64,000 nucleotides of DNA from Pedosphaera sp. GTDB taxonomy: Bacteria; Verrucomicrobiota; Verrucomicrobiia; Limisphaerales; Pedosphaeraceae. The translations under genes and the position numbers were made by a program. The stretch is taken from positions 62,001 to 126,000 of the forward strand of contig JAQGPA010000080.1 in the NCBI GenBank assembly GCA_028293325.1, written 5' to 3'. Within the stretch, counting starts at the first letter, position 1, and the number at the start of each line of letters is the position of its first letter. Of the stretch, positions 14,652-34,393 are shown piece after piece. The notes under the pieces were generated by a model, which saw nothing but the letters and a program-made list of their open reading frames with translations, ran no database searches and had not been told where the DNA came from.

Positions 14652-15275
14652 CTATTCGTCGTCAGAAAGTTTCTGCAATTCCTCTGCCGTAAATGGATCA
14701 GGATGAGTCGCAATTTTGGCGCGGATTGCCTTGACCTGTTCCACCGTCACCGGCCCCGCGCTGTTACCCCAGTCCTTATTCCCACGGACGAAAGTAAGCA
14801 CCGCCGCAATGTCCTCGTCTTTTAACAGATCTCTCCACGGCGGCATCTGCACAGCGCCAAACTGCTGCTGCTTGACCTCCACCGGCCCCTGTAACCCGCT
14901 GAGCAGGATTCGTTCAAGCCGATTTGCCGCTGCCGCCTGCACCCATTCAGATCCGGCCAAAGGCGGAAACTGCCCCGGCACACCGAATCCGGTCGCTTGA
15001 TGGCAAACAGCACAGTTGGCTGTAAAAATTTTTAATCCTTGCTTTGGATTGGGACCAATAACATGGGGTTGCGCATCATCCACCAGCGCGAAACTTCCGT
15101 ACGGCGCGTAAACTTTGGAGCTGAACCCGCCACCGTGTGTATTGAGATACAGCATCCCCCAATACGCCAGCAACGTGAGCAGAATAATCAACCAAATCGG
15201 AACCACGGACCGATTCGCCGTTGGCTCGGCTTCGTCCGTTGTTCGTGGCATTGATTGTTTGGGCTCAGGACTCAT
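14652..15275 (-). CDS. Membrane-anchored monoheme cytochrome c of the cbb3-like module
   Basis: Last gene of respiratory operon 1. After a polar N-terminus there is one membrane helix (about residues 25-45, PIWLIILLTLLAYWGMLYL). The only heme c motif is CAVCH, followed by a class I cytochrome fold with the axial Met probably in VQMPPW. A canonical CcoP has two hemes; this protein has one and resembles a single CcoP cytochrome domain. Its start overlaps the ccoO stop by four bases. It probably receives electrons from the CcoO-like heme. No CcoQ-like gene is visible. Confidence 0.85.
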   Translation of the reverse strand: MSPEPKQSMPRTTDEAEPTANRSVVPIWLIILLTLLAYWGMLYLNTHGGGFSSKVYAPYGSFALVDDAQPHVIGPNPKQGLKIFTANCAVCHQATGFGVPGQFPPLAGSEWVQAAAANRLERILLSGLQGPVEVKQQQFGAVQMPPWRDLLKDEDIAAVLTFVRGNKDWGNSAGPVTVEQVKAIRAKIATHPDPFTAEELQKLSDDE

Positions 15276-15988
15276 TTCGCAGGAGAATTCGTTGGCACGC
15301 TGTTCGTGGCCGTCGCGATCACAGGCGCATTGGTCGATGCCGCCGGGGCATTCGTGCTCGGGAATGGCGGCGTTTCAAAAACAATCGCTTCGGAATGCAA
15401 ACTGCCAAGGTACGCCACCAGTGCCTTCGCTTTATCCGTCGGCAAAATCTCGTAATTCTCTTTCGGACCGTTCACCACAAACACCGCATTCGGCGAAGGC
15501 TTTTCACCCAGCGCCAATTTGCTCTTCATAAACAAAAATGGGTACGGCGGCATCGTCGAACCCTTGGATGTTAATTGCGGATTGTATAGATGCGACAACA
15601 ACCAGACCTCGTTGGTCTGCCGCAGCCCAATGTTCGTCAAGTCGGGCCCCACTCGTTGTGAGCCCAACATCACCGGCTGATCATAAAGATAATCCTGCGC
15701 CACGCTCTGCACCGGGCTTGGACGCGCGCCCCAACCGCGGGCAACATCTGTTCCAAATCCCAGCGGACGCACCTGCTGGCTGTGGCAGTAATAACAGCCA
15801 TTCGCGCGATACACTTCCTCGCCTTGCTTGGCCAACCCGGGCCGCCGGGCCGGATACATCTCTCCCGTATCCTTGATTTCCACCTGCTGCTGACGCCCAA
15901 TCTGCAACTGCGGCATCACCACAAAACCCAGCCATGAAGTGGCCAGCGCAAAGAAGGTCGCCAAAAACACCAAAGGTCCCGGATTCAT
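15272..15988 (-). CDS. ccoO: cbb3-type oxidase subunit II-like monoheme cytochrome c
   Basis: A 238-residue protein with an N-terminal membrane anchor (about 5-25) and the CcoO signature: VYRANGCYYCHSQQVRPLGF with the CYYCH heme site, DYLYDQPVMLGSQRVGPDLTNIG, and the axial methionine in GSTMPPYPFL. All heme-binding residues of the family appear intact, unlike its CcoN-like neighbour. The C-terminal 40 residues are Ala/Thr/Asn/Pro-rich and look flexible. The start overlaps the CcoN-like stop (ATGA). Confidence 0.9.
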   Translation of the reverse strand: MNPGPLVFLATFFALATSWLGFVVMPQLQIGRQQQVEIKDTGEMYPARRPGLAKQGEEVYRANGCYYCHSQQVRPLGFGTDVARGWGARPSPVQSVAQDYLYDQPVMLGSQRVGPDLTNIGLRQTNEVWLLSHLYNPQLTSKGSTMPPYPFLFMKSKLALGEKPSPNAVFVVNGPKENYEILPTDKAKALVAYLGSLHSEAIVFETPPFPSTNAPAASTNAPVIATATNSVPTNSPAK

Positions 15989-17454
15989 GATGCCACCCCC
16001 GCCGCTTTGGTGTTCAAACTCATGGCTGTCTTATATGAAGCGTGTCCCAATTTAACCAGCAGCCCTGCCAGGTTCATAAGGAAGATGAGGTGCCCAACCG
16101 CCATCAGCAAATCGCCCGTCGTGCTTGCGCGCAGGAATGGCAGTGTCCCCGTCACTACGTCCAGAAACGGCGTCTTTGCATCATTCAGCGCCAGACCCTG
16201 CTTCACTCCGCCAATGGCCAGCGGAGCCGCATACAACACGATGCCCAGCATCGCCAGCCAGAAATGCGCTGCCACCATCTTCGGCTTGCAAAATTCCCGC
16301 TGCGTCAGCTTCGGTACGATGTAATAAATTGCGCCAAACATCGTCATCGCAAAAAAACCATAAATCACCAGTTGCATCTGGGCCGGCACAAACCAGGTAA
16401 AGTTTGTGATCTTGCTGACCCGTCCCAGTGAAGCTCCCACGCTCATCAGCCCGGAAAGCACATACGCTGCCATGCCAAATGCAATAAATTTCAACGCTGG
16501 ATTACATCCCTCCGATCCTGAATATCCGCACAACGTCTGCTTGACGTTCACTGCCACCGCCAAAATCGGCACCAAGGTCAACACGGCGGCAAACGTGCTC
16601 AACGCCGGCAACCATGCCGGTACCGGGGCGCCAGCCGGCACCCTGCTCCACGAGCCAAAAATAATGAGTGTCCAGAAGGTAAAAAGCCCCAGGTAATGAC
16701 TGGCCAGCGGCCGCTTCGTAATCTTGGGAATCAAATAAAATGCTGCGCCCAATCCCACCAACCCAAACCACACGGTCGTCAGGTTATTTGCATACCATGC
16801 GTCGATGACGGCCTGCATCACACCGCGCACCGGCTTCGCCACGAGCAGCAAATTGGCGCTGGAATAAATCCACGGAAACCAAAACAGCGCCGCCAGTAAA
16901 AACCATTGTGAAATATAAAGCTCCCGCTCCCGCCGCTGGTGAAATGTCAGCATCCCGGCCAATCCAATCCCCAAATAGCCAAAAAACATCGGCACCGAGG
17001 CATAGCGCGGCAGTTCCAACATTTCATATCCGGTGCTGTCGCCTCCAATGATGCCTAAAATGCCCAGGGTCACACCCACGTTCCAAAACAACCAGCCCGC
17101 AATCACCAATGGCGCACTTGCAAGTTTCGTCCTGCCTAGATGCGCCACGAGCCAGAGCAAAACCCCCAACCCGGCTTGCAAGCCAAACCCATAAACCAGC
17201 GCGTTGCTCGCCGCCGGATGAACCCGTCCATAAGTCAGCCACGAGTAATCTGCCAGCATGACCGGCTTATGAAACTTGAGCGAGGCAATGATGCCAAAAA
17301 ACGAACTCGCCAACACCCAACCCGCCGCGCTCAAAAACAATAGCATCACCGGCGCCCGGCATGAGGCATCGATCTCGGCAGCAGAAATCTCCGGAACAGC
17401 CTGGGGGCTGCCGGTGGAAATCGACTGCGATGGGGAAATCGTCGCGCTCATCAA
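15985..17454 (-). CDS. CcoN-like (cbb3 subunit I) protein lacking all canonical heme and CuB ligands
   Basis: At 489 residues with about 12 hydrophobic segments, it aligns by eye with CcoN throughout, including FYLIPKITKRP, the FWTLI helix and AHFWLAMLGIVLYAAPLAIGGVKQGL near the end. The metal ligands are gone. The TM2 heme b His (RPLHTNA in CcoN) is A82 in HPAASNA. The CuB His of WWYGHN is N223 in WYANN. The CuB His-His pair falls at P273-A274, and the cross-linked Tyr position at G267. The GHVH pair on TM10 (heme b3 and heme b) is Q359-M-Q361. By family knowledge it therefore cannot bind heme b, heme b3 or CuB as an oxidase does. It is encoded between a small membrane protein and an intact CcoO, and starts 12 bases after the former. 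A structural or electron-relay adaptor for ACIII is my inference. Confidence 0.85.
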   Translation of the reverse strand: MMSATISPSQSISTGSPQAVPEISAAEIDASCRAPVMLLFLSAAGWVLASSFFGIIASLKFHKPVMLADYSWLTYGRVHPAASNALVYGFGLQAGLGVLLWLVAHLGRTKLASAPLVIAGWLFWNVGVTLGILGIIGGDSTGYEMLELPRYASVPMFFGYLGIGLAGMLTFHQRRERELYISQWFLLAALFWFPWIYSSANLLLVAKPVRGVMQAVIDAWYANNLTTVWFGLVGLGAAFYLIPKITKRPLASHYLGLFTFWTLIIFGSWSRVPAGAPVPAWLPALSTFAAVLTLVPILAVAVNVKQTLCGYSGSEGCNPALKFIAFGMAAYVLSGLMSVGASLGRVSKITNFTWFVPAQMQLVIYGFFAMTMFGAIYYIVPKLTQREFCKPKMVAAHFWLAMLGIVLYAAPLAIGGVKQGLALNDAKTPFLDVVTGTLPFLRASTTGDLLMAVGHLIFLMNLAGLLVKLGHASYKTAMSLNTKAAGVAS

Positions 17455-17466
17455 ACAACGGACTGC

Positions 17467-17850
17467 TTATTCAAACTGGCTGGGCTTCTCCGGCGCCTTC
17501 GGTGGAACCGCCGTGGCCTTTTCCACGCGGGCAATCAAATTGGAACGCGCCGCCGCGGGATTCACCCGCCACTCGCTCTCGGCAATCTTCATCGCCTGAT
17601 CGATCGGCAAACGCACCACACCCTTGCCCTGGTCCTGCCATGCGTAGTTATTCAAAATCTCCGCGTTGGCCGCCCGGAGTTCCGCCAGGTTCTTTCGGCG
17701 CAATGCCGCCCGGTCTTCACCCAGCGGTTCCGGCCGCGTGAAGTGATACATCACCCACGCCAACCCGGCCACGATCAGGAACGATCCGATAACGGCGATG
17801 GCATACGCAAAAACGCCGTAACAACATTTCTTTTCCGGTTGGGTATTCAA
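17467..17850 (-). CDS. Small membrane protein between ACIII and the cbb3-like module (copy 1)
   Basis: A 127-residue protein not assigned to a named function. It has a cytosolic start with a CC pair, one membrane helix (about residues 13-38), and a soluble domain with ELRAANAEILNNYAWQDQ then GVVRLPIDQAMKIAE. The same pattern (ELRAREDAELNNYGWVDR, GVVRIPVERAIDIIA) occurs in the gene at the same place in respiratory operon 2, so the two are homologous. Its start overlaps the actF stop (ATGA), and the CcoN-like gene follows after 12 bases. The fixed position suggests a subunit or assembly factor joining ACIII to its partner. Confidence 0.8.
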   Translation of the reverse strand: MNTQPEKKCCYGVFAYAIAVIGSFLIVAGLAWVMYHFTRPEPLGEDRAALRRKNLAELRAANAEILNNYAWQDQGKGVVRLPIDQAMKIAESEWRVNPAAARSNLIARVEKATAVPPKAPEKPSQFE

Positions 17851-19121
17851 TGGCTACCTCCGCTTTTGGGCTTCAGCCCTTTGGCCGTGGCCGCCTGCAC
17901 ATATTCATCCGCAGGCACATAAACATCCATCGCCTCGGCAATGCGCGGATCCTGCTGCGGGAACGGTGCATGCGCGTTGAAATTCTTTAAAAATACCTTG
18001 CTCAGCACGCCGCCAATAAATGCCGCGCACGCCAGGTCCATCCAATCCAGGTGATAACCTTTGGTATGCAACACTGGCATGATGTTGAAGGACATGTCCA
18101 CGAAGTGCATTAACCACGCCCAGACTCCCAGTGCCACCATGATCCATGCCTTATGTTTGACATCAATGCGCAACAGCATGAGAAACGGCAGAAAGAAATG
18201 GCCGAAAATAATGACCAAACTCACATAAAACCAATTCCCCGCCTCGCGTTGGATAAACCAAAATGTTTCCTCCGGCACGTTTGCATTCCAGATGATGAAA
18301 TATTGGAAAAAGGTGATGTAAGCATAAAACACCGTAAACGCGAACATCAACGACCCGATATAGTAAAATGTCTTTTCCGTCGCCACCTCTCGCAACGGCC
18401 CCTGTCGCTTGAGAATCAACGTCAACGTGTAAACTGTATAAATCGTGATCCACACGCTGCCGGCGAAGTAATAAACGCCATACATCGTCGAGAACCATTC
18501 ATGTTCCAGCGATTTCATCCACATGATGGCTCCGAACGTCAGCGTCAGTGCAAAAAGAAACACTCCCACGGCTGCATACCGGCGCATCATCCGCGTGCAT
18601 TCCACTGATCCGGTTTGGTCCTGTTTCAACGACCAATAACGCAGCCGGTTGGACAACACCCACCAAACCACAAAGCAAATGATCGATACGATGAAAAATC
18701 CCTTGATGGTAAACAGCGGCTGCTTGGATGCCAGCGCATGATCCATCTCACCGTCTCTGAGCTTTTGCACCCACGCATAAATGATGTTGTCATGATGGGC
18801 AAAGAGCACATTCAGGGCGATGGGAATGAACATGAACGCCATCACTGGCAACAGGCACGCCAGGTTTTCGCAAATACGGCGGGTGGCCACCGACCATGCC
18901 GCATCAAAAAGATGATGCAAGATGACCAGAATCAAACCGCCCAGCCCCAGGCTCAGGAAAAACATGAACGCCAGCAGCCAGGAATAACTGAACTGCCGGT
19001 AATCGTGAAAGGCTCCGAACGCAGCCAGGGCCCCGCCGATCAGCATGAGCAGCGTCGGCACGGAACGCCACCGGGACAGGTCCATCGGCGGCAGCGTGTT
19101 GGAATTTGTTGGCGAACTCAT
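17847..19121 (-). CDS. actF: ACIII membrane subunit ActF (operon 1)
   Basis: A 424-residue membrane protein of the quinol:cytochrome c oxidoreductase ActF family, a shortened relative of ActC with about ten helices. Recognisable parts are FMFFLSLGLGGLILVILHHLFDAAWSV split at about residues 55-80 (first helix pair), EHEWFSTMYGVYYFAGSVW and YITFFQYFIIWNANVPEETFWFIQREAGNW in two adjoining blocks. ActF forms part of the membrane core of the complex. The polar C-terminal tail (about 395-424) is cytosolic-like. The gene starts four bases after actE ends. Confidence 0.9.
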   Translation of the reverse strand: MSSPTNSNTLPPMDLSRWRSVPTLLMLIGGALAAFGAFHDYRQFSYSWLLAFMFFLSLGLGGLILVILHHLFDAAWSVATRRICENLACLLPVMAFMFIPIALNVLFAHHDNIIYAWVQKLRDGEMDHALASKQPLFTIKGFFIVSIICFVVWWVLSNRLRYWSLKQDQTGSVECTRMMRRYAAVGVFLFALTLTFGAIMWMKSLEHEWFSTMYGVYYFAGSVWITIYTVYTLTLILKRQGPLREVATEKTFYYIGSLMFAFTVFYAYITFFQYFIIWNANVPEETFWFIQREAGNWFYVSLVIIFGHFFLPFLMLLRIDVKHKAWIMVALGVWAWLMHFVDMSFNIMPVLHTKGYHLDWMDLACAAFIGGVLSKVFLKNFNAHAPFPQQDPRIAEAMDVYVPADEYVQAATAKGLKPKSGGSH

Positions 19122-19124
19122 AGG

Positions 19125-19739
19125 CTACTTTTTCAGCGTCGCACGCAGTTGATCCGGCACGTCATCGATCGATCCCAAACGGCTTAATTGCAAAGCGCGG
19201 AGATACGAAATGATGGCCCAACGATCTTCGACCGTCACATTCGCTGCATATGAACCCATCAGACCCTTCCCGTAGGTTATCGTGTTGAAGATCTCCCCAT
19301 CGGGAAGCTCCACAATGCGTTTATCATGCAAATTGGCCACCACGGACATTCCGAGCTTCTTCGTGACGCCGTTGCCTTCACCCTGCGCACCGTGGCAGGG
19401 CGAGCAATTGATATTGAACCGTTGCTGTCCGCGCGCCAGCAACTTGGAGCTGACTTCCACCGGCAGCACTTCCACAAAGTTTGTCGTGCCGGAAACGCGG
19501 CCGGTATTCAGCGGCGTGTCCTGGTAATGATCATCCCACGCAATGGTCCCGGCAATCGGCAGCCGCGAACTCTTGCCGTCGGCAAAAAAATTGTTCGGCG
19601 TCTGCGGCCGCAGTTTCGGCTGGCGATCCATGTCCGGAAACACCTCGATTGGCGGCCGGCGGGAAATGCTTCCGCGCTTGCCGGCCACTGCCACCACTAC
19701 CACCGCGCACAGTACGAATATTAGCAGGAAGTAGCGCAT
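19125..19739 (-). CDS. actE: ACIII monoheme cytochrome c subunit ActE (operon 1)
   Basis: A 204-residue protein with an N-terminal hydrophobic anchor (residues 1-19). It lacks a clear lipobox, unlike the operon 2 copy. It has the ActE landmark VFPDMDRQPKLRPQ, one heme c site CSPCHGAQGEGNG, and a later Met-rich stretch GKGLMGSYAANV that can supply the axial Met. It should pass electrons from the pentaheme ActA to the downstream acceptor. It begins immediately after the actD stop. Confidence 0.9.
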   Translation of the reverse strand: MRYFLLIFVLCAVVVVAVAGKRGSISRRPPIEVFPDMDRQPKLRPQTPNNFFADGKSSRLPIAGTIAWDDHYQDTPLNTGRVSGTTNFVEVLPVEVSSKLLARGQQRFNINCSPCHGAQGEGNGVTKKLGMSVVANLHDKRIVELPDGEIFNTITYGKGLMGSYAANVTVEDRWAIISYLRALQLSRLGSIDDVPDQLRATLKK

Positions 19740-20279
19740 TTATTCCTCCACCAATTCGATGCGCTTGCTGCCGACACTCTCCAGCAGCTTGCGGGTTTCG
19801 TTTTCCGAATACTTCGGGTCTGTGGTCTCAATCACAATAAAATAGCGGTCGTGGGTCGCCAGCGCAAAACGGCGATGCTTGAGCAGCGGATGATGCAACC
19901 GCGGCAACCGGTTCATGAATAACATGCCGAACAAAGCGCCAAATGCCCCCAGCAGAATCGTCAATTCGTAGCACGGCGGGAAAGCGCCGAACGGGCTGAA
20001 CATCGGTTTGCCGCCAATCGGGATCGGATAGTCCACCGCGTTCATCCACCAAATCATCACCATGCCGCTGGTGTAACCGGTTACGCCCCCGATGAATGAG
20101 AACCAGCCCACTTTTGAATTCTTCAATCCCATTGCCTTGTCCATCCCGTGGACCGGATAGGGCGTGAATACATCCCACTTCCGAAAACCGGTGTCCCGAA
20201 CTTTCTCGGCGGCATGCATGGCATCCGCGGGGGTTTCAAACTCGGCAAGAATTCCGTAAATATTTGGAGTCGCAGCCAT
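19740..20279 (-). CDS. actD: ACIII subunit ActD, DUF3341 family (operon 1)
   Basis: A 179-residue protein with an N-terminal ferredoxin-like DUF3341 domain (GILAEFETPADAMHAAEKVRD, then FTPYPVHGMDKAMGL) and two membrane helices (about 60-85 and 100-120) separated by the GGKPMFSPFGAFPPCYEL loop. In solved ACIII complexes ActD is a peripheral two-helix subunit without cofactors. The C-terminal residues RFALATHDRYFIVIETTDP form the second half of the soluble domain. Start and stop nearly touch those of actC and actE. Confidence 0.92.
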   Translation of the reverse strand: MAATPNIYGILAEFETPADAMHAAEKVRDTGFRKWDVFTPYPVHGMDKAMGLKNSKVGWFSFIGGVTGYTSGMVMIWWMNAVDYPIPIGGKPMFSPFGAFPPCYELTILLGAFGALFGMLFMNRLPRLHHPLLKHRRFALATHDRYFIVIETTDPKYSENETRKLLESVGSKRIELVEE

Positions 20280-20280
20280 C

Positions 20281-21747
20281 TTAATGATGCCCTCCTTCCT
20301 TTGCGCCGCCCAACGGATGATGCGGATCCGCCTGGGGTGTCACACCCTTGACTTCCGCAATGGCAATGATCGGCACAAATCGCAGGAACAGCAGGAAAAA
20401 TGTGAAGAACAATCCGAACGTCCCCAGGTAAGTCAGGATGTCCACCCACGTCGGACGGAAATATCCCCAGTTCGCCGGCAGGAAATCGCGATGCAATGAA
20501 ATCACCACGATCACAAACCGCTCAAACCACATCCCAATGTTCACAAAAATCGAGAGGATGAATACCAGCAACATATTGGTCCGAACTTTCTTGAACCAGA
20601 AAAGCTGCGGCGTAATCACATTGCAACCGATCATGATCCAGTAACCCCAGGCATAGGGACCGACCGCGCGATTGATGAACGCATAGCGCTCGTAAGGATT
20701 GCCGCTGTACCACGCAATGAAGAACTCCATCGCATAGGCATAACCAACAATCGAACCGGTCGCCAACGTCACCTTGCACATCAACTCCACGTGCCGCACG
20801 GTAATGATATCTTCCAGCTTGAGCAACTTCCGCAACGGCACCAGCAACGTCAGCACCATGCCGAAGCCCGAGAATACCGCTCCCGCGACGAAGTAAGGCG
20901 GAAAGATGGTCGTGTGCCAGCCGGGCAATTGCGACACCGAGAAGTCCATCGACACGATGGAATGCACCGACAACACCAGCGGCGTCGAGAGACCGGCCAA
21001 AATCAAATACGCCTTCTCATAGTTGCTCCAATGCCGGTTCGAACCGGTCCAACCCAGGGAGAAAAGTCCGTAGGCAAACTTGCGGATCTTCGTCTTGGCC
21101 CGATCGCGCATGACCGCCAGGTCCGGAATCAAACCCATGAACCAGAACAACAGCGATACGGTAAAGTAGGTTGAAACCGCGAATACGTCCCACATCAGCG
21201 GCGAGCGAAATTGCGGCCAGATGCCATTCGAGTTCGGAATTGGGAACAGCCACCAGCCGAGCCAGATACGCCCGATATGAATCAGCGGAAAAATACCCGC
21301 GCACATCACGGCGAAAATGGTCATCGCTTCCGCCGCACGGTTGATCGAGGTCCGCCAGCGCTGCCGCAACAAGAACAAAATCGCGGAAATCAGCGTGCCG
21401 GCGTGTCCGATACCGATCCACCACACGAAATTGATAATCGCCCAGCCCCACATGACCGGATGACCCGGTCCCCATACACCCACGCCCACCGACATTAGGT
21501 AGGCGATCATGGTGAAACAGGTCGTCATCAACACCACGCTCGGCACAAATGCGATCCACCACCAAGTCGGAGTCTTACCCTCGGCGACTCCAGCGATGGC
21601 GTCCGAAATCCAGCCAATGGAACGTTGGTTCGTGACCAGAGGTTCCCGTTGCAACTCAGCGGGTGGAGCCTTTATTTGCAAGGCCGACCCAACCGGCACC
21701 GACGCCGGGCGGGTTTCGGTTTTGAAATCTACGAGCGCGTCAGCCAT
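20281..21747 (-). CDS. actC: ACIII quinol-binding membrane subunit ActC, NrfD family (operon 1)
   Basis: A 488-residue NrfD/polysulfide-reductase-type membrane protein with about ten helices. Diagnostic stretches are [20 protein letters not shown], which contains the conserved His near the quinol site, [18 protein letters not shown], and [19 protein letters not shown]. ActC binds quinol close to the ActB iron-sulfur chain. The C-terminus is His-rich ([13 protein letters not shown]). The ATG at 21747 overlaps the last base of the actB stop codon. Confidence 0.93.
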
Positions 21748-24700
21748 TACTCCGCTCCTTTCTTGGAACCAGTCGGGCTGGTTTCCGAATGCGCCTCATG
21801 GCCACCGACTTCTTCAAATGGATTTCCACCATGCTCTTTGAATTCTTTCGTGCTCAATGGCATCTCATACGCGTCCGGCATGGACGGGTTGGGATTGCGC
21901 ACTTTCGCCAGGTAAGTCGTGCGCGGTTTCGTGTTGAGAAATTCCAACACCGAATAATCACGCTGCTGCGCTTTGAGTTTCGACACCGCGCTGTTCGGGT
22001 CGGCCACGTTTCCAAAAACGATTGCCTCGGCCGGACATGCCTGTTGGCAGGCGGTCTTGATCGTGCCATCCGGAACCACCACATCGCCGGACGCGCCCGC
22101 CTTGACCTTTTGCGTGATCTTGGCGCCTTCGATGCGCTGCACGCAAAAACTGCACTTCTCCATGACACCGCGCATGCGCACGGTCACGTCCGGGTTTTTC
22201 ACCAGCTTGAGCAGTTCCCATTCTTCGGTCGGCCGCGTGCCGCGATCCGGATCCTTCCACCAGCGCAACAAATCCCACTCCCCTTCGGTCTTGTGCAGGA
22301 TTGGCGTCGTGTAAACCGGGCCTTGCAATTGTTCCAGCGGCCGGCGGTTGTAATCGAAAAAGTTAAAGCGCCGGACCTTATACGGGCAATTGTTGGAGCA
22401 ATAACGGGTGCCCACGCACCGGTTATAGGTCATCACGTTCAAACCTTCCTGGTCATGCGACGTCGCATTGACGGGACAGACATTTTCGCACGGCGCCGCT
22501 TCGCAGTGCTGGCAGAGCATCGGCTGGGTGACCATTTGCGGGTCTTCAATCTCACCCGTGTAATAACGGTCAATGCGCAGCCAGTGCATCTCGCGGTTGT
22601 TCGCCACCTGGTATTTGCCCACGATCGGCACATTGTTCTCGCTCTGGCACGCTATCATGCACGACGAGCAACCCACGCATGAGCTCAGGTCAATGGACAT
22701 GCCCCATTGGTGGTGCGCCTTTTCCTTGAGCTTGTCGATCGGGTTTGGATAAAGCGATTCGAACACCGGCGGCTTCTCCATGCTCATCTCACCCGCAAAA
22801 TTCGGGTGCTCTTGAAATTCCTTCAGCGTCGCCTCGCGGATGATCGGCCGGCCTTCCATGCCCCAATGATCTTGCGTGGTGGAAAGTTGATGCAACTTGC
22901 CGGTCGCTGCCAGCTTGGCTCCGGTCGCAATATGTGTGGCCTTGGTCGTGCGCACCGCATAAGCGTCATAACCGGAATTAATCCCCACCCGCCCGGTCTG
23001 TTTGCGCCCGTAACCGAGCGCCAAACCGACGACATTATCCGCCTGGCCTGGCTGAACCCAGACGGGACCTTCAACCGAACGTCCGTCCAATTCAATTTTT
23101 GCCCATGGAACTTTGAGCTGGTTGTCTTCCCGATTTTTGATTTCCAGGCCCAAATCCTTGGCCGTCTGAGCACTGATCAAAATCACGTTTTCCCAAGTCA
23201 TCTTGGTGATCGGGTCCGGCAATTCCTGCATCCAGCCGTTGTTATTGAAACGACCGTCATCTGTCCGGTAATCGCGGTGGAACACCACTTCCAGCTTGTC
23301 CTTGTCCGGCACAACCACCGGTGCCGCGGACGCCAGCGCTTGCGAGACGGCGGCTGTGTCAACTCGCGCACTCATCGACTTGGCCGCGCTGTTCGCCAAA
23401 AAGCCGTCATGCAAAAAGCTCTTCCAAGCTTCCTCACCACCGCCCGTCACGCTCCGGAAAGTCTCACGAACAACGTCATACGCGCCGGCCTTTTCAATGC
23501 CGGCAATGCGGGCCAGCACTTCCAGTTCAGTGACGCCACCGAACAGCGGTTCAATCAGCGGTTGAATCGAAACCATCGTGCCATCACTGGTTCGGGCATC
23601 ACCCCAGGATTCCAGATAATGCGCCATTGGCAAATTCCAGCCGTTGGTCGGCGATGATTCGTCCTCGGAATAACCGAGCCGGACCACGGTTTTCGCCATG
23701 CCTTGCGCCTTCGCCCAATCCAAATTGGCGGGCGCATTGTAAACTGGATTGCCGCCCAGGATTACCAGCGTATCAACCGCGCTTCCGTTCAGCGCTTGAG
23801 CCAATTCGGCAATGTTTCCGGCCTTCGGCGCGGGTGCAGCATGCAAAAGCACAGTATTACCAATACTACCTAACGCCACGTTCAGCGTCTGGGCGATCAC
23901 ATGCACCGCCAGCGGTTGGCGATGTCCGGCTAATACGACGCTGCGATTGGTGTTGTTCAGCAAATCGGCCGCGCATTCTGCCGCCCATTTGTTAATCCAG
24001 TCCGCGCTCCATGCCCGGCTTGATTTCACATCCCGCGGCTTAAGCTGCTCGTTCAGCGCCTTGATGGCCTTTTCATCAATCAGACCGGCAATGGCCACCG
24101 CAACCGCGCCATCCACTTTGCCCGATTGACGCAGCACCTCGCGCGCCAGCAAGGCGGCGATTTGAATCACTGCGTTCGACGGAATTCGCAGGCGATGATC
24201 CGCATTGGCGCCCGTCAAGGTCAGCAACGCTTCCACGGCGTACAGCCGGCTCATGGAATCCTTGTTGCTGCTCAATTTCCGGCCCTTGGTAAAGCGGCGG
24301 ATGTTGACGTAGGCGTTTTCCTCGGAACCAATAAAATCAGAATCCAGGGAAACAATCACCCGGGCGTCATCCAACTTATAGTACGGCGCAACGGGCTGGC
24401 CAAACACCAGGGAAGCTGCCTGCCGTTGAATGTCAAAATCAACCGGTTCGTAAACAAACCATTTCGCCTGTGGCAATTTCTCCGCAATCACCTGCTCCAA
24501 CCGCGCGCGGGACGGCGAACTGCTCTGTTCCGCAAGGAAACAAAGCCCCTGCCCGCCATTTGCCTTGGCTTTGCTGCCGAGCTCCGTCAAAAAACCCATC
24601 GCCGTGTCGCTCGCGACGTTGTTCCCGTTCTGCGTGAAGCGGGTGGCGCGATCCGGATCATACAAATCCAGTATGGAGGCTTGCGTATAACGATCCGTCC

Positions 24701-25100
24701 CACCATTGCTGTCGGGATGATGCGGATTGCCTTCCAACTTTGTCGGGCGCCCATCATTCGACTTGGCCAGCAATGGCACGGCGCTGTTGCGGGTCGGCAT
24801 CGACGTCGCAAAAAACTTCGCCACGCCATGGACATACCCTTCCGGCATCTTCGAGAAGGGATAAATATTCTCTACCGGACGCCGGCAACCGGTCAGTCCA
24901 AAGCCCGCCAGCAGGAACGAGGCGGACATGATTTTTACGAAATTGCGCCGGGTTAAAGGGTCCGTCAGTTCGCTGGCTCCGGCAGGAAATTCGCGCTGCG
25001 CCCATTGCTGGAACTCAGGCGTTTCTGCCAATTGATCTAAACTGCGCCAATACTTGGGGCCGGTCTCCGGAATTGGACAAGGTGGAGGAATTGTTTTCAT
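21747..25100 (-). CDS. actB: ACIII iron-sulfur/molybdopterin-like subunit ActB (operon 1)
   Basis: Start ATG 25100, overlapping the actA stop (ATGA); an in-frame start at 25142 lies inside actA. The 1117-residue protein begins with the variant Tat leader [20 protein letters not shown] before a Cys, then a molybdopterin-oxidoreductase-like domain (about 70-740) that in known ACIII holds no Mo cofactor. The ferredoxin-like part at about 800-1030 has four cysteine clusters: [47 protein letters not shown] and CSFC with [10 protein letters not shown]. These bind three 4Fe-4S and one 3Fe-4S centre in the family. It is about 110 residues longer than the operon 2 copy. Confidence 0.94.
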
Positions 25101-25765
25101 CGGTGACAGGTGGAGCAGTTTTGCAAGGATTCTACCTTCCAATCGTGAACGAATTTTGTCCCTTCAACCCGCTGCTTGATTGCAGCTTCCTTGGGATTTT
25201 CGCTCCATTTCCAATCGAGATCAGTGATTTTGTCAGGGGGACGCAAATGGGCGGCTGGATCGCGGTGGCAATCCAGACAGAAAGACATGCTCAACGGCTT
25301 GGCCTGGGCTACTTCGTCCATTTTGTTGATCTGACCGTGACATTCCACGCAACTCACACCCCGGTTCACATGCACGGAATGGTTGAAATAAACGTAATCC
25401 GGTAATTTATGGATCTGTACCCAGGGAATCGGCTGGCCGCTCTGGAAACTTTCCCGCACCACCGCCAGCTTGGGATCATCCTTCAACACTTGATTGTGGC
25501 AGTTCATGCACAACGAACTGGCTGGAATGTTCGAATACCACGATTTTTCCACCGCATTATGGCAATAACGGCAGTCCATGCCCAGTTGGTCCGCATGGAT
25601 GGCGTGGGAAAACGCCACCGGTTGCACCGGCATATATCCAACATTCGTGTACTTATTGGTGAAATAATACCAGACACCGGCAGTCACTCCAGTACCCACG
25701 AGTAATACGCCGGTGATAATCATCAACGGCAGCCGATTTGTCCACTTGGGGAAGATGTCTGACAT
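25097..25765 (-). CDS. actA: ACIII pentaheme cytochrome c subunit ActA (operon 1)
   Basis: First gene of operon 1. The 222-residue protein has a membrane anchor (about 12-34) and five heme c sites: CRYCH at 65, CMNCH at 86, CVECH at 139, CLDCH at 163 and CSTCH at 217. Extra histidines such as FSHAIHAD and FNHSVHVNRG fit bis-His ligation. It takes electrons from ActB and passes them to ActE. The ribosome-binding site is weak (GTAGAG close to the ATG). The 490-base region upstream holds a CRP-like palindrome. Confidence 0.92.
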   Translation of the reverse strand: MSDIFPKWTNRLPLMIITGVLLVGTGVTAGVWYYFTNKYTNVGYMPVQPVAFSHAIHADQLGMDCRYCHNAVEKSWYSNIPASSLCMNCHNQVLKDDPKLAVVRESFQSGQPIPWVQIHKLPDYVYFNHSVHVNRGVSCVECHGQINKMDEVAQAKPLSMSFCLDCHRDPAAHLRPPDKITDLDWKWSENPKEAAIKQRVEGTKFVHDWKVESLQNCSTCHR

Positions 25766-27679: not shown

Positions 27680-28054
27680 TCAGGGCAAGGGACGCGGTTC
27701 CATTGGCTTATCCCCCGGCAGATGATTCCAGTTTTTATCCTGCCAATTGGATAGCACCCGGTTGTAAGGCCGGACAAATCCGCGTGTCGTATAATCACTC
27801 AGCGTCAAAGTGATCATGATCATCAACCACAGAAATCCGGCTCCGGCGAACACCCATGTCAATCGGCTGCTGTACCGTACATGCATGAAATACAGGATCA
27901 CCAGCAGCATTTTGATTATCGCAATGGTCAAAGCCGCCAGCGAATTAAACAGGCCCAGATCGAATTGTGCCACCCCCCAGGTCACGAACAGAAGCACCAT
28001 CAAGCTTGCCCAAATCACGAAATAAATCTTTTTTGAAACAATTTCTGTGCTCAT
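27680..28054 (-). CDS. coxD: Cytochrome c oxidase subunit IV-like (caa3)
   Basis: Last gene of operon 2. The 124-residue protein has three hydrophobic helices (about 10-28, 38-58 and 65-85) with the subunit IV signature ALTIAIIKMLLVILYFMHVR. This small subunit stabilises caa3/aa3 oxidases and has no cofactor. Its ATG overlaps the coxC stop by four bases. Confidence 0.88.
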   Translation of the reverse strand: MSTEIVSKKIYFVIWASLMVLLFVTWGVAQFDLGLFNSLAALTIAIIKMLLVILYFMHVRYSSRLTWVFAGAGFLWLMIMITLTLSDYTTRGFVRPYNRVLSNWQDKNWNHLPGDKPMEPRPLP

Positions 28055-28695
28055 GTATGTCGATCAATTAAATAGATGAGTGGATATAAGAATATCCAAA
28101 CGATATCCACAAAATGCCAATACAAACCCGCCAGCTCCACTGGCGTGTTATACACGCGGTCAAATCGCTGTCGCGCAGCCAGCCATGCCATTACCGATAG
28201 GACTCCAATCCCCACCATCACATGCACCGCGTGCAACCCCGTCATGGCAAAATATAAATAAAAGAATATTACCGCTTGTGGCGCCTGTGGTATCGGATGA
28301 AAAGCTTGTCCCGGAATCTCATGATTCTTGAAATGTTCGTAGTACTCCGCCCCTTTGACCACCATGAACGCCGCCGCAAAGAGGATCGTAATCAATATAT
28401 AACGCACCACCGCCTTGTTCCTGCCTTCCTGCGCCGCATGAACGCCCAAGGCCATGGTCAGACTGCTCGTCAGCAGGATTGCCGTATTGACCGTGCCATA
28501 AATAATATTGGTATGGCGGCTCGCTATCTCGAAACTCTGAAAGTAGGTATGGCGATAAATAATATATCCCATAAACAAGCCGCTAAAGAACATGATTTCC
28601 GTGGCCAAAAACGTCCACATACCCAGCCATGCAGCCTGATGTTGCTGTTCCAAGGTTTCAAAATGCTCCGCCAGCGCTCGTTTGGTTTCAGGCAT
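28051..28695 (-). CDS. coxC: Cytochrome c oxidase subunit III
   Basis: I choose ATG 28695 over ATG 28701 because GGAGG ends only one base before the latter but has six bases to the former. The 214-residue protein has five or so helices: [19 protein letters not shown] at the start, the subunit III Glu in that helix, the [31 protein letters not shown] region (in two adjoining blocks) and [18 protein letters not shown] at the end. This five-helix form without the first two helices is usual for caa3 oxidases. It supports oxygen access and proton pumping by subunit I. Confidence 0.92.
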
Positions 28696-30343
28696 GATCA
28701 TCCTCCGCTTTTTTCTCCTCCTCCTGGGGTGAGTAATCGTACGGTTCCCCCGTCACCCGGGGCACTTCCGCAAAATTATGCACCGGCGGCGGCGATGGTG
28801 TTTGCCATTCCAAACCCGTTGCCCCCCAAGGATTGGCGCCCGCCTTCTTCCCGTGACGCAACGACCATAACAGATAAATAACCGGCAATAGATAGCCCAC
28901 TCCCAGAATGGTTGCTCCGGCAGTGGATAGCACATGATAAATCTGAAACTCAGGTGCATAGGCATGGTAGCGTCGCGGCATGCCGAGATAACCCATCACG
29001 AACTGCGGAAAAAAAGTCAGGTTAAACCCAATGAAGGTCACCAGCGCGGCCAGTTGTCCCAGCTTCTCCGGATACATTCGTCCCGTGATCTTCGGCCACC
29101 AAAAATGTATCCCGCCCATGAACGCCAGCACCGTGCCGCCGACCATGATGTAATGAAAGTGGGCAACTACAAAATACGTGTCCGTCACATGCACATCCAC
29201 CGCCAACGCGGCCAGAAACAGCCCGGTCAGGCCCCCCAGCGAAAATAAACCAATGAAGCCCAGCGCATAAAGCATCGGTGTCTCAAAGGAAATCGAACCC
29301 CGGTGCAGCGTGGCCGTCCAGTTAAACACTTTGATTCCCGATGGAATCGCCACGATAAAACTCAGGATTGAAAAAATCATCCCGGCATAAACCGATTGGC
29401 CGCTGACAAACATATGATGCCCCCAGACAACAAAGCCGAGCACGGCAATGGCCATGCTGGCGAAGGCAATGAACTTGTACCCAAAAATCCGCTTGCGCGA
29501 AAAACAAGGAATCAATTCGCTCACCACCGCCATGCTGGGCAAAATCATGATGTACACCGCCGGATGCGAATAAAACCAGAACAGGTGCTGGAAGAGCACC
29601 GGGTCGCCGCCCAGCCTCGGGTCAAAAATCCCGAGGCCCCAGATACGCTCCAGCATCATCAGCAACAGCGTGATCGCGAGCACCGGCGTGGCCAGCACCA
29701 GAATCAGGCTCGTTGCGTAATGGGACCAGATAAACAGCGGCAGTCGAAACCAGGTCAATCCCGGCGCGCGCATCTCATGCACCGTAATAATGAAATTCAG
29801 CCCGGTAAGAATGGATGCGAATCCGGACAAAAATATCCCCAAGGCCATTTCGACCGTGTGGGTGTTTGAATAACGACTGCTGTAAGGAGTGTAAAATGTC
29901 CAACCCGTGTCCACTCCGCCGACTATGATCGCGTGTAATGCCAGCAATCCACCCGCCATGAATAAATACCAGCTCAGCAGGTTCAGCTTGGGAAAGGCGA
30001 CATCGCGTGCTCCAATCATCATCGGAATCAAAAAATTCCCCAACACGTTGGGGATTGAAGGGATGAGGAAAAACCAAACCATGATCACTCCATGAAGCGT
30101 AAACAACTTATTGTACGTTGCAGAAAGGACCAGGTCACCTGGCGGTGTCAGTAATTCCAGGCGCATGATGGCCGCGGCCACTGCCGCAATCGCAAAAAAG
30201 AAGATGATGGAAAATAAATAGAGCAGGCCGATTCGTTTGTGGTCCGTGGTTAACAGCCACGAGCGGACGGTGTGGCCTGCCGACAGGTAATTCTCCTCCA
30301 CCTCCGCGGGCGCGGGCACCGGCACTGCTTCAGTTTCATTCAT
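28688..30343 (-). CDS. coxA: Cytochrome c oxidase subunit I, A2-type caa3
   Basis: The catalytic subunit that reduces oxygen and pumps protons. The 551 residues carry all expected metal ligands: low-spin heme His in [10 protein letters not shown], the first CuB His and the Tyr in [15 protein letters not shown], the His-His pair in WGHHMFVSG, and VAHFHYIM for heme a3 and heme a. YSHPAVY replaces the classic GHPEVY, which identifies the A2 family (Tyr-Ser in place of the K-channel-linked Glu) typical of caa3 enzymes. Twelve helices are evident. It overlaps coxB by four bases. Confidence 0.95.
28702..28706 (-). promoter_or_regulatory. Ribosome-binding site deciding the coxC start
   Basis: GGAGG on the minus strand, inside the end of coxA, lies six bases before ATG 28695 and only zero bases before ATG 28701, so the inner ATG is the likely start. 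Confidence 0.6.
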
Positions 30344-31284
30344 CTCGTTTCCTCCGGTTGTTTCAAGCCCAGACTCTTGATGTAGAGCAACAATTGCAGC
30401 AATTCCTCCTCGGAAATATGCCCCGCAAACGTGGGCATTACCGGCGCATAACCCGCGGCAATTTGCGACTGGGGTAACAGGATTGAATCGCGGATGTACT
30501 TCTCATCGGCCATCACTATTTGGCCGTCGGCCAGCGGTACCGGTTTCCCGAACAATCCTTCCAGACGTGGCGCGCGGATCTGCGAGTTCCCCATATGACA
30601 CCCGCTGCAACCCAACTCCCGGAACAATCGTTCCCCGGATTGCGCCATGGTTTCCGCCGGCTTGCCCACGCGCAGCCATTCCTCATAATCGGCCGGTTCC
30701 ATCACAATTACATGTCCCACCATCCCCGAATGACTGGTGCCGCAGTATTCCGCGCAAAAAAGATGATACGTACCAACCTTCGTCGGCTGGAACCATTCCG
30801 TGACATAACGCCCCGGCAGCACATCCTGTTTGACCCGGAACGCCGGCAGAAAAAAACTGTGAATCACATCCTGCGACGTCATGATTAACCGTACCGCCCG
30901 CCCCGTCGGCACATGCAATTCGTTTATCTCCCGATTCCCCTCGGGATGCTGAATTTTCCACATCCATTGTTTGCCGATGACTGTTATATCCATCGCCTCC
31001 GCTGGCGGACGTTCCTGGTCGAAAAAAATATCCGCTGCCCAAGTGTAAAAACCAAATACGATGAGCAACGGAATGACTGTCCAGGTCACTTCAATCTTCC
31101 AAAGGGGTATGCGCAATGGGCTGCGGTCCACCTTGTTTCCGCGTCGATATTTGTAAAGAAAGTAGAGCATCGGCAGGAAAATAATCGCCATCATGATCGC
31201 CGACAGAAGCGTCAATCCAAAATAAAGCTCGTCCACCTTTGGCGCGAGCGTGGAGGCCTGATCGGGGAAAAGAGGGAAGCGCAT
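30340..31284 (-). CDS. coxB: Cytochrome c oxidase subunit II fused to cytochrome c (caa3)
   Basis: A 314-residue subunit with two N-terminal helices (about 22-45 and 62-82), then the CuA cupredoxin domain with [20 protein letters not shown] holding both Cys, His and Met ligands, and a C-terminal cytochrome c domain with heme site CSGCH and a likely axial Met in APVMPTFAG. This fusion defines caa3 oxidases and lets ACIII pass electrons directly. It begins three bases after the SCO gene. The first 20 residues have no typical lipobox. Confidence 0.95.
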
Positions 31285-31287
31285 AAT

Positions 31288-32154
31288 TTAACCTGGTCCC
31301 GTTCGCACCGGCGTAACCGGCTCCTTTCGTGCCGACTCCCGCCGGATCATTATCACCATCCCCCGCCCCAGCACCAATAACGTCAACACACCACCCGCGC
31401 GCACCGCCATCATGACCAGTGCGCCATATTTTCCAGTGCTGGGGCTGTAATGAAAACAAAGCAGAAAAAATTGCTCCACGGGTGTGCCGACCTTGTTCGC
31501 GGACGCCGCCACCAGCGCCGCGTTCAAGTCCTTCCCCGCGTAGGTGACGCCCGGGAGATAACGCGATACTTTGCCTTGCGGCGTCAGGATCACCAGTCCG
31601 CTGGGATGGGCATATTGCCGGGACGGCTCGTCATAAACATAGCGAAAGCCCACCTCTTGGGTCAGTTTTCGGATCGCCGCTTCGTCCCCCGTAAGGAAAT
31701 GCCACCCCTGCTCCACGCCATGCCGGCCATAGCGTTTCAGATACGCCTTCTTTTTTGCGGCGGCCAACGCCGTTGTTTCGTGCGGATCAATGCTGACATT
31801 AATGATTTCAAATTCTCCGCCCGCGCTCGACTTGAGATCCTGCAGGCTCTCCACCAGGCCATTGAGCACCAGAGTGCAGAGCATTGGACAACCGTAATAA
31901 CCCAGCACCAGGATGGTCGGTCGCTTCCCCAGATAATCACCCAGCTTTACTATTTTTCCGGTCTCATCCCGAAACGGCAGGTCAAGTGACACCTGTTGCT
32001 GAAGCTTTTGGTCAAACTTGATCTGACGCAGTTCCTCATCGGATACCGCCCGCGCCACCGCTGGCACCATCACCATCGCCAGCCACACCGCAAGCATGAC
32101 CAGCTTCAAGCTGGCTGCGCCCGTTGCTTTGCGGATTTTCATTTCTGTTTTCAT
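31288..32154 (-). CDS. SCO1/SenC-family copper chaperone, membrane-anchored
   Basis: I start at ATG 32154, which overlaps the upstream stop (ATGA); the longer frame to 32253 lies within that gene. The protein has an N-terminal signal or anchor (about 15-35), a thioredoxin-like domain with the copper-binding GYYGCPMLCTLVLNGL (CxxxC) and the conserved His in PSRQYAHPSGLVIL, and a C-terminal helix (about 255-275) followed by a basic tail. SCO proteins deliver copper to the CuA site, which fits its place right before coxB. Confidence 0.9.
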   Translation of the reverse strand: MKTEMKIRKATGAASLKLVMLAVWLAMVMVPAVARAVSDEELRQIKFDQKLQQQVSLDLPFRDETGKIVKLGDYLGKRPTILVLGYYGCPMLCTLVLNGLVESLQDLKSSAGGEFEIINVSIDPHETTALAAAKKKAYLKRYGRHGVEQGWHFLTGDEAAIRKLTQEVGFRYVYDEPSRQYAHPSGLVILTPQGKVSRYLPGVTYAGKDLNAALVAASANKVGTPVEQFFLLCFHYSPSTGKYGALVMMAVRAGGVLTLLVLGRGMVIMIRRESARKEPVTPVRTGPG

Positions 32155-32657
32155 TTCGCAGGTTGCGGTGGCGGGGCTACGTATTGCCCTCGTCGCCCTT
32201 GAATAAGTTGCAACATGGACGGCCCCACCCCGCCCTGATTGGTGCTCGCCCATGCCGGCAACCCCTTTTGCGCAATGATGTCGATCGCCCGCTCCACGGG
32301 TATCCGCACCACGCCGGTTTTGCGATCCACCCAGCCATAATTGTTCAACTCGGCATCCTCACGTGCACGCAACTCTTGCAAGTCCAGCGGCGGTGAGACT
32401 TGCAGCCGTGGCTCGGGGAATTCCCGGAGGGACATCGCCACGTCTGGCACCACTTCCTGCCGCGCGGCCTGCTGATCCATCAAAACATGACGCCGGTAAT
32501 AACCGGCGAACTGCCAGCCAACCACGAAATGAATCACCACCCCGGTCGCGATTAGCATGCCGATCCAGAACATGATCCACTTGATGTTGACGTCGCGATA
32601 CTCCAGGCCGCGTCCGGTTGGCTGGGGATCTGCCTGGGGATGCGCGCTATTTGGCAT
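32151..32657 (-). CDS. Small membrane protein between ACIII and the caa3 module (copy 2)
   Basis: Start placed at ATG 32657 (MPNSAHPQADPQ), which overlaps the end of actF by 11 bases; the frame is open to 32687. The 168-residue protein has one helix (about residues 28-50), then ELRAREDAELNNYGWVDRKT and GVVRIPVERAIDIIAQKGLP, matching the operon 1 copy in sequence and position. The extra C-terminal 25 residues are Gly/Gln/Pro-rich. No known catalytic motif is present. I infer a linker or assembly role between ACIII and the oxidase. Confidence 0.78.
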   Translation of the reverse strand: MPNSAHPQADPQPTGRGLEYRDVNIKWIMFWIGMLIATGVVIHFVVGWQFAGYYRRHVLMDQQAARQEVVPDVAMSLREFPEPRLQVSPPLDLQELRAREDAELNNYGWVDRKTGVVRIPVERAIDIIAQKGLPAWASTNQGGVGPSMLQLIQGRRGQYVAPPPQPAK

Positions 32658-33816
32658 GGAGAATAACAGGTTGCATGCGGGGATCATTTTGCGGCATCAA
32701 TCGCCGGCTCTTCAAATTCGCGAGAAACACCGCAATCCAAATTCCTCCCACCCCGATTGGCGCGGCAATGTCCAGCCAATGAATGCGGATGCCTTGCGGG
32801 TAAAAGGATGGCACCACCATCCAAAACACGTTCACGATGTGGACCAGAAAAACGACCATGGCAATGCTCATCAATATCACCACTCGCTGTTTGTTGGCGC
32901 GAAACAGCAGCAGGAAGAAAGGCAGAAAGAAGTGGAACAGCGCGAGCAGCACCACAATCCATTTCCAGCCTCCGGCGATGCGGTGCAGATACCAGGTAAT
33001 TTCCTGCGGCAGATTCCCCGACCAGATGATGAGCAATTGGCCAAATGAAACGTAAGTCCAGAACATCACGAACGTCAGCAGCAGATTGCCGAGATGATGA
33101 AAGTGCGTGGTGGAAACCACCCCTACAAACGGCGGCTCTCTCCGGAACCAGGCGAGCAAAATGATGGCAAATGCGAAAGCCGAAAGGAATTGGCCGATGA
33201 AGATGATCACCGGAAACATGGTCGAATACCAGTCGGGCTCCAACGACATGATCCAGTCAACGTACGCAAATGTCGCCGTTACAGGATATATGACAATTCC
33301 CGGCCCGCTTAACTTCCGCAAGCGGCGGGTCGGCGCCGGGTCGGTCGTCCCATCCTGTTGCACCGACCATTTCCGCAGCAGCCACGCCATAATGATCCAA
33401 ATCGCAAAAAAGAGGACGCTGCGCCCGATAAACATTCCCGGGTTCTCATAAACCCGCCGGTGTCGCAGCACCTCATCTTCGGCGACCAGCGCTGGTTTCG
33501 CCCAGGGATAAAGAAAACGCAGCCCGAAAAAAACCGGCACGAACAACACGGCCATCACCGGCAGTGTCATGAATCCAGCCTCAAGAAATCGGCGCGTCAC
33601 ATTGCCCCAACGGCCTCCCGTGAGATGATGGATCATGGCCACGCCAAAACAACCCAAGGCCAGCCCCAGCCAGAATAAATAGCCGAACAGATAGGAAACA
33701 AAAAATTGCGGCGTGCGCACGACGGCGCCCAGGACGCAAAACGCCAGGCCAATCAATCCCGCCACCAGCGCGATTTTCTGCCAACGGGTCAACGCGGCGC
33801 GCAGAGCCTCATTCAT
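32647..33816 (-). CDS. actF: ACIII membrane subunit ActF (operon 2)
   Basis: A 389-residue homologue of the operon 1 ActF with about ten helices. Landmarks are SYLFGYLFWLGLALGCFGVA, the MIHHLTGGRWG loop, SLEPDWYSTMFPVIIFIGQF and FGQLLIIWSGNLPQEITWYL. Its ATG overlaps the actE stop by eight bases. Relative to copy 1 it is 35 residues shorter, mostly at the C-terminus. Confidence 0.9.
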   Translation of the reverse strand: MNEALRAALTRWQKIALVAGLIGLAFCVLGAVVRTPQFFVSYLFGYLFWLGLALGCFGVAMIHHLTGGRWGNVTRRFLEAGFMTLPVMAVLFVPVFFGLRFLYPWAKPALVAEDEVLRHRRVYENPGMFIGRSVLFFAIWIIMAWLLRKWSVQQDGTTDPAPTRRLRKLSGPGIVIYPVTATFAYVDWIMSLEPDWYSTMFPVIIFIGQFLSAFAFAIILLAWFRREPPFVGVVSTTHFHHLGNLLLTFVMFWTYVSFGQLLIIWSGNLPQEITWYLHRIAGGWKWIVVLLALFHFFLPFFLLLFRANKQRVVILMSIAMVVFLVHIVNVFWMVVPSFYPQGIRIHWLDIAAPIGVGGIWIAVFLANLKSRRLMPQNDPRMQPVILHAK

Positions 33817-34393
33817 GTTGCTGCCCCTCCAATTGGGCCCGTTCGCTCGGCGTCAGGTCTGCCAGACTTGCATTATGACTCAACTGCAGGGCGCGGATGT
33901 AAGCCGTAATCGCCCAACGATCCGCCGGTTCCACCCGCTCGGCATACGAATACATGATGCCATAACCATGCGTGATGACATCGTAGTAATATCCCGCCGG
34001 CGCCTGACGCAACCGATCGATGTGATAGGATGGCGGCGGCGGAAAGCCACGCTGCGGAATCATTCCGTTCCCCGCCCCGGTGCGCCCATGGCAAACGGAG
34101 CAATAAATATCATAACGTTCGCGCCCGCGCTCCAAAACCTGCCGCGTTACCTTGATGGGAATATTCTCAATCAGATTTGTCCCCTTCTTACCGGTATAAA
34201 ACTGCTCGTCCGCGTCCAGATGCCCGCGTGCGACCGTGCCCGGCACCAGCGGTCGGGAGGCCGCGCCATTTGCAAACAGCGTGCTCGATGCCAGCGGATC
34301 GGAGCGCGGCTGATGGTACATTTCCCGCCGGCAACCACACAGGAGCAGCATCGCCAATCCGCAAACGATGGGCACTTGCACAAATAATTTCAC
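33809..34393 (-). CDS. actE: ACIII monoheme cytochrome c subunit ActE, lipoprotein (operon 2)
   Basis: The start is GTG 34393, preceded by a strong GGAGGTGA and overlapping the actD stop (GTGA). The open frame runs to 34486 inside actD and is not used. The protein begins VKLFVQVPIVCGLAMLLLCG with a lipobox LLCGC, so it is probably lipid-anchored. MYHQPRSDPL follows, matching the ActE N-terminal landmark, then the heme site CSVCHGRTGAGNG and a later region HGYGIMYSYAERV that may give the axial Met. It passes electrons from ActA toward the caa3 oxidase. Confidence 0.9.
   Translation of the reverse strand: MKLFVQVPIVCGLAMLLLCGCRREMYHQPRSDPLASSTLFANGAASRPLVPGTVARGHLDADEQFYTGKKGTNLIENIPIKVTRQVLERGRERYDIYCSVCHGRTGAGNGMIPQRGFPPPPSYHIDRLRQAPAGYYYDVITHGYGIMYSYAERVEPADRWAITAYIRALQLSHNASLADLTPSERAQLEGQQHE

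Follow-up and report, generated by a model that had tools for sequence, protein, structure and literature searches.

ACIII (6BTM) is encoded by actABCDEF, and in the ACIII-aa3 and ACIII-caa3 supercomplexes the ACIII genes are followed by those of an oxidase. In Opitutaceae and verrucomicrobial methanotrophs, a "cbb3" gene set is found adjacent to ACIII (Refojo 2010 as cited in PMC8498564). This cbb3 was placed beside ACIII and put in line with a high O2 affinity (PMC6688271), cbb3, aa3, and ba3 were listed for the verrucomicrobial methanotrophs (PMC8498564), and PMC10205796 and PMC11102522 also use the cbb3 label. The locus described here belongs to the same family and gene cluster. It has actABCDEF and the position of the oxidase genes after the ACIII genes in common with the supercomplexes; its attached oxidase module, however, is predicted to contain neither heme b nor copper. 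The CcoN-like protein shares the fold, the length, and the transmembrane layout of canonical CcoN (3MK7, 5DJQ, 6XKW, 8SMR) and is likewise followed by CcoO-like and CcoP-like c-type cytochromes, but it lacks the heme and CuB ligands, the catalytic tyrosine, and CcoS, its gene is joined to ACIII genes, and it reaches only 139.9 bits with the ccoN equivalog model TIGR00780 (cut-off 583). An intact ACIII-linked copy is also below this cut-off (248 bits). A parallel to the ligandless CcoN exists within ACIII itself, since ActB is a molybdoenzyme-like subunit without the molybdenum cofactor (PMC8552683). CydA' of the CydAA' bd-type oxidases is an oxidase subunit paralogue without heme ligands, which differs from the CcoN-like protein in its unrelated fold and the absence of a link to ACIII.

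The window, i.e., the whole stretch of 64,000 nucleotides analyzed, harbors an operon oriented in a single direction (25765 to 14652) with the order actABCDEF, small gene, ccoN, ccoO, and cytochrome c (Table 1). The penta-heme ActA, the ActD family protein, and the NrfD-like ActC identify it as an ACIII operon. The ccoN-like open reading frame was confirmed at the originally predicted position and is located on the minus strand (17454 to 15985, 489-amino-acid product), starting with TTG at 17454 or with the ATG immediately following. The start of the CcoO-like gene overlaps the stop of ccoN, and the ccoN-like, CcoO-like, and CcoP-like genes overlap or almost touch each other. No Pfam family matched the small membrane protein encoded upstream of ccoN. 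A small membrane protein gene follows actF in both ACIII operons of the window (17467-17850 and 32151-32687), and the two proteins share the motif YGW/YAW.D..KGVVR.PI..A. The second ACIII operon is located upstream (36.3-27.7 kb) and encodes an A-type oxidase with all six histidines. Two weak matches to the cytochrome b C-terminal domain were found in the genome (G000:C46:4583-4816 and G000:C152:11126-11302), and an A-type oxidase gene is close to one of them; a bc-type complex besides the two ACIII is therefore conceivable.

Table 1. Positions of the operon genes, the ligand codons of the CcoN-like subunit, and the neighboring ACIII operon in the window
Feature	Position	Strand	Evidence or remark
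actA, penta-heme cytochrome c	25097..25765	-	five CxxCH
actB, FeS / molybdopterin-oxidoreductase-like	21747..25142	-	
actC, NrfD-like	20281..21747	-	Pfam NrfD 2.5e-22
actD	19740..20279	-	Pfam ActD 2.3e-65
actE, mono-heme cytochrome c (CSPCH)	19125..19739	-	
actF	17847..19121	-	gene order and homology across loci
small membrane protein, family unknown	17467..17850	-	between actF and ccoN, conserved in intact and ligandless loci
ligandless CcoN-like subunit	15985..17454	-	Pfam COX1 E 1.4e-44; ligand columns ANGP-QQ or ANGPAQQ
codon 82 (Ala)	17209..17211	-	at TM2 heme b His, P. stutzeri H60
codon 223 (Asn)	16786..16788	-	at first CuB His, H207
codon 267 (Gly)	16654..16656	-	at cross-linked Tyr, Y251
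codons 273-274 (Pro-Ala)	16633..16638	-	at CuB His pair H257-H258
codons 359-361 (Gln-Met-Gln)	16372..16380	-	at H345 (heme b3) and H347 (heme b)
CcoO-like mono-heme cytochrome c	15272..15988	-	Pfam FixO 1.1e-26; CxxCH = CYYCH
CcoP-like mono-heme cytochrome c (CAVCH)	14652..15275	-	Pfam Cytochrom_C 2.4e-13, Cytochrome_CBB3 3.3e-10; final gene of the operon
second, separate ACIII operon (actC2-D2-E2-F2, small2, SCO, ctaC, ctaD, ctaE, ctaF)	27680..36344	-	context only, outside the described complex

Among solved structures, only C-type oxidases were matched by phmmer (E 1e-25 to 1e-30), and the aligned span with CcoN (3MK7, 9G6B, 6XKW, 8SMR) covered approximately residues 43-475. The ligand columns were read from an alignment of the family in which P. 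stutzeri CcoN served as the reference. The original prediction had claimed an alignment along the length of cbb3 subunit I with A82, N223, G267, P273-A274, Q359, and Q361 at the ligand and tyrosine positions; the alignment and every residue held; the column of H258 is read as A274 or a gap. The only gap near any ligand site comprises two residues at or just after the CuB pair, in a loop. The protein contains eight histidines (62, 79, 105, 172, 253, 397, 455, and 471), none of them at a ligand position; H79 is located three residues ahead of the heme b site and is not conserved. The AlphaFold2 model (mean pLDDT 93) adopts the cbb3 subunit I fold and superimposes on 3MK7_A with TM scores of 0.85/0.89 at 2.2 Å; these are Foldseek scores and not a residue-by-residue alignment. 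Hence, the heme-copper oxidase subunit I fold (in the model) and an adjoining CcoO with a c-heme motif (Pfam FixO, CYYCH) are present as in a cbb3 oxidase, while the heme b histidine pair, the heme b3 histidine, the three CuB histidines, and the cross-linked tyrosine are missing. The CcoN-like subunit is free of the ligands of heme b, heme b3, and CuB and of the catalytic tyrosine.

A misalignment, a frameshift, or an assembly error could mask a normal CcoN, and the overall identity to solved CcoN proteins is only about 22-24%. This explanation is all but excluded. The register at TM2, TM6, and TM10 is gap-free with intact members of the same family, in agreement with the earlier argument for replacement rather than misalignment, and the model matches 3MK7 at 2.2 Å. 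The loss is not due to chance or assembly, because it is shared by 62 further ligandless members, among them the sister protein L075 (60% identity, ligand columns ANGPVQQ), and the ligands are intact in the genome's three remaining COX1 proteins.

The family was collected by a phylum search and by scanning 84,980 species genomes; for the scan, a closer sequence set was used, as the family-wide alignment was too diverse. It comprises 126 distinct members including the window protein, almost all of them from Verrucomicrobiota, a few from Planctomycetota, and one from a record labeled Omnitrophota. The ligand set HHYHHHH (six histidines and the tyrosine) is intact in 63/126 members and not intact in the other 63. 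The intact half (e.g., IMCC26134 and Geminisphaera colitermitum) corresponds to the ACIII-adjacent "cbb3" of the cited accounts. The common order in both kinds is act genes, small gene, ccoN, ccoO, and cytochrome c, and the window protein occupies the family position (actF-small-ccoN-ccoO-cyt c). act genes precede every ligandless copy whose upstream DNA was available, and they are found beside intact members as well; for four intact loci (L119, L122, L125, and L150), the available DNA contained no detectable act homologue. Since the act-ccoN order is common to both kinds, the linkage to ACIII characterizes almost the entire family rather than only its ligandless part. The window protein clusters with intact ACIII-linked members, and canonical CcoN falls outside this group (support 100/100 in a 52-row tree, 100* in a 137-row tree). 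By sequence, the protein is the descendant of an intact cbb3-like oxidase subunit linked to ACIII. The intact half of the family was not visible to the original prediction; the case is one of repeated loss in an ACIII-linked cbb3-like family rather than of one odd protein.

After the loss, the ligand columns scatter into many residue combinations. In the ligandless copies, the tyrosine is retained in 1/63, H345 in 5%, H347 in 10%, and H60 and H258 in 21% each; glutamine is found repeatedly at the heme positions (Q347 in 29/63, Q345 in 18/63). Sites that are invariant in intact copies change, too: S240 to Ala, Y251 to Gly, Ala, or Ser, and G211 and G349 to bulkier residues. L010 and L022 read HNSQRYH. 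In L126 (HHSARHH), all three heme-ligating histidines and one CuB histidine are preserved, and the CuB pair and the tyrosine have been lost; this copy (L126:4632-6146), from an Opitutaceae MAG, has also kept CcoS. It might represent an intermediate, and the loss might have been ordered, with the heme ligands disappearing after CuB and the catalytic tyrosine, and CcoS together with the hemes, but a single intermediate is no proof of order. Some ligandless copies with single ligands (e.g., H60 in the f3 and f8 families) could conceivably still hold a heme. In the MAG contigs of L086 and L096, the ccoN-like gene is broken into two frames, by sequencing error or real decay. Two weak COX1-like frames, L164:1443-2876 (478 amino acids, adjoining an A-type oxidase set and without a phmmer match in the PDB) and L165:899-2278 (460 amino acids), possibly encode further degenerate COX1 proteins.

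The seven ligand columns were masked before tree building. The 137-row tree required six changes, and so did the more careful 52-row tree (bootstrap range 5-6; one-change trees 0/200), in which four are forced by well-supported branches. The changes are losses, because the outgroups are intact. Ligands were therefore lost at least four times and probably six times, although some deep long-branch placements are unsure. The losses are clearest where ligandless copies are nested within close intact relatives (L015/L124, a 16-row Opitutaceae group, and L126); the window protein and L075 are part of a Limisphaerales-like group.

The gene could be a vestige that is decaying after O2 reduction shifted to other oxidases and is merely carried by its operon position. 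The scattered ligand combinations and the longer branches (median root-to-tip distance 2.29 in ligandless and 1.12 in intact copies) would be in accordance with this. However, the frames are open in nearly all copies, pairwise dN/dS is 0.10-0.31 (intact copies 0.05-0.14), and out of 158 columns conserved to ≥90% in intact copies, 55 are still conserved to ≥80% in ligandless ones, the heme-site and CuB-site columns not being among those kept. The dN/dS values are crude NG86 estimates, with several pairs near saturation at silent sites. Furthermore, the gene order remained fixed after at least four separate losses, the CxxCH motifs of the partners persist in ligandless loci (CcoO 44/45, cytochrome c 48/49), and the predicted fold is clean and of high confidence. 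A vestige is thus unlikely; fold, operon, and neighboring c-heme proteins are maintained under purifying selection.

The loss of a maturation gene accompanies that of the ligands. CcoS is essential for an active cbb3 oxidase, and ccoS mutants assemble an inactive enzyme (PMC7558416, PMC5742617). A short open reading frame between the small gene and intact ccoN was first noticed via a weak ccoS match. As TIGR00847 (ccoS) was too narrow and gave one sub-threshold match, a CcoS-like profile of the family itself was used; members of this short frame match Pfam FixS ("cytochrome oxidase maturation protein cbb3-type"). This profile detected the frame upstream of ccoN in 61/63 intact but only 1/63 ligandless loci, the single exception being L126, which keeps H60, H345, and H347. 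Short loci may hide copies; genome-wide, however, one copy each was found in 9/9 intact genomes and none in any of the 22 ligandless genomes. In the window genome, no CcoS was found with either the family profile or TIGR00847. The divergent CcoS/FixS-like frame marks intact ACIII-linked loci such as L042, L044, L085, L117, and L139. The CcoS-type maturation gene is gone together with the ligands, which is evidence separate from the ligand columns, although the paired losses represent only 4-6 independent events, with which a sign test cannot attain 0.05. CcoG was uninformative as a marker; it is present only in genomes with canonical CcoNO and absent from intact-only genomes, too.

Alternatively, the protein might have a novel mode of binding heme or a different cofactor, or keep a proton, ion, or quinone path, and thus have an energetic role of its own. 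The fully kept fold, the conservation of H62 and H397 in the window clade, and the recurrent glutamine at the heme positions speak for this possibility. Yet H62 and H397 are also common to the intact family and hence not new, no new conserved His/Met pair was found when new heme ligands were sought, the otherwise invariant residues at the CuB and heme sites (S240, Y251, G211, G349) are altered, and CcoS is lost. We consider this alternative improbable. The claims that the protein is no terminal oxidase and is tied to ACIII held: the ligand loss recurs, act genes precede ccoN, and ccoS is lost. A non-catalytic role is all but certain, in the absence of biochemical data, and the heme-less state is supported from sequence alone.

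Several observations bear on the electron route. Another COX1 protein was present in 34/34 ligandless genomes tested, and an A-type oxidase that retains all six histidines is encoded directly downstream in 13 of the ligandless loci. In 13 of the 22 ligandless genomes checked, there is no ACIII besides the linked one, and a cytochrome b C-terminal domain was not detected; the complex must therefore pass electrons to a separate enzyme. The presence of canonical CcoNO elsewhere in the genome did not track ligand loss, as some ligandless genomes possess it and others do not. In the window genome, the CcoN-like complex need not be the main route, since a second ACIII-caa3 operon exists. N2O-reductase genes were reported within the ACIII cluster of M. 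caldifontis IT6 (PMC11102522), and a precedent for a relay is the N. gonorrhoeae cbb3 complex, in which electrons exit via an extra CcoP heme towards AniA (PMC8552683).

The most plausible interpretation is that the protein is a non-catalytic C-type oxidase-fold subunit I built into ACIII, which would serve as a membrane scaffold retaining c-type cytochromes and passing quinol electrons onward. Menaquinol would be oxidized by ACIII and electrons would run down the ActA and ActE hemes to the c-hemes of the CcoO-like and CcoP-like proteins, held in place by the putatively cofactor-free CcoN-like scaffold. From there, they would reach a separate acceptor, either an A-type oxidase (often encoded directly downstream; in the window, in the neighboring operon) or another periplasmic reductase. 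O2 reduction would thus be relocated elsewhere, and the former oxidase core would persist as a docking and relay platform. This reading is likely and fits the electron-route data (other COX1 proteins, downstream A-type oxidases, sole ACIII). The scaffold, relay, and docking functions and the cofactor-free state are inferred, physical membership in ACIII is deduced from operon conservation only, and docking of CcoO and CcoP and the onward electron flow are likewise conjectural; the "scaffold or relay" of the original prediction remains the best inference, not a test. The subunit might also merely recruit the A-type oxidase to ACIII, with the CcoO and CcoP hemes outside the main electron flow. 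The A-type oxidase genes directly downstream in many ligandless loci would support this, as would the fact that ActE of R. marinus can pass electrons straight to caa3 (PMC5928083). Nevertheless, the CxxCH motifs of CcoO and cytochrome c are retained almost without exception, which makes pure recruitment very unlikely.

Two ligandless genomes match Methylacidiphilum fumariolicum SolV (G042) and M. kamchatkense Kam1 (G152). The ACIII-linked CcoN of SolV reads SESSHFV, and the Kam1 copy has the same motifs. In SolV, the phylum search detected no other CcoN, and the one further COX1 match is NorB. The cited accounts treat the whole ACIII-adjacent cbb3 group as an oxidase, whereas the Methylacidiphilum copies are ligandless. 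On present evidence, inferred from sequence alone, the cbb3 oxidase label is wrong for SolV and Kam1; the earlier expectation that such genes would be mis-annotated has been borne out by the Methylacidiphilum literature. A second ActD domain was observed in very long frames (679-791 amino acids) in the Methylacidiphilum-like family (G042, G152, G072, and G266), which might point to a second, fused ACIII-like complex.

While the fold and the gene cluster were already known, the retention in ACIII of an oxidase core that was decommissioned repeatedly is apparently new. No description of the ligand loss was found in the open-access literature searched; subscription papers, including the original Refojo articles, were outside the scope of the search. 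In a bolder reading, towards which we lean with some reservation, cofactor-free "pseudo-oxidases" would be widespread, the active site having been lost about six times in one ACIII-linked family and the protein kept each time as a wiring hub. In many verrucomicrobia, the sole complex III-like enzyme would contain this hub, which would feed other terminal enzymes, and the Methylacidiphilum "cbb3 oxidase" would be no oxidase. For the published reading, the results imply a correction, as the "cbb3" gene of SolV and Kam1 lacks the residues that hold the cofactors. With its intact sister copies, approximately six losses, a likely intermediate, and a maturation gene that vanishes along with the active site, the family represents a replicated natural experiment in which a respiratory enzyme turns into a structural part, and the way in which ACIII hands on its electrons becomes testable.
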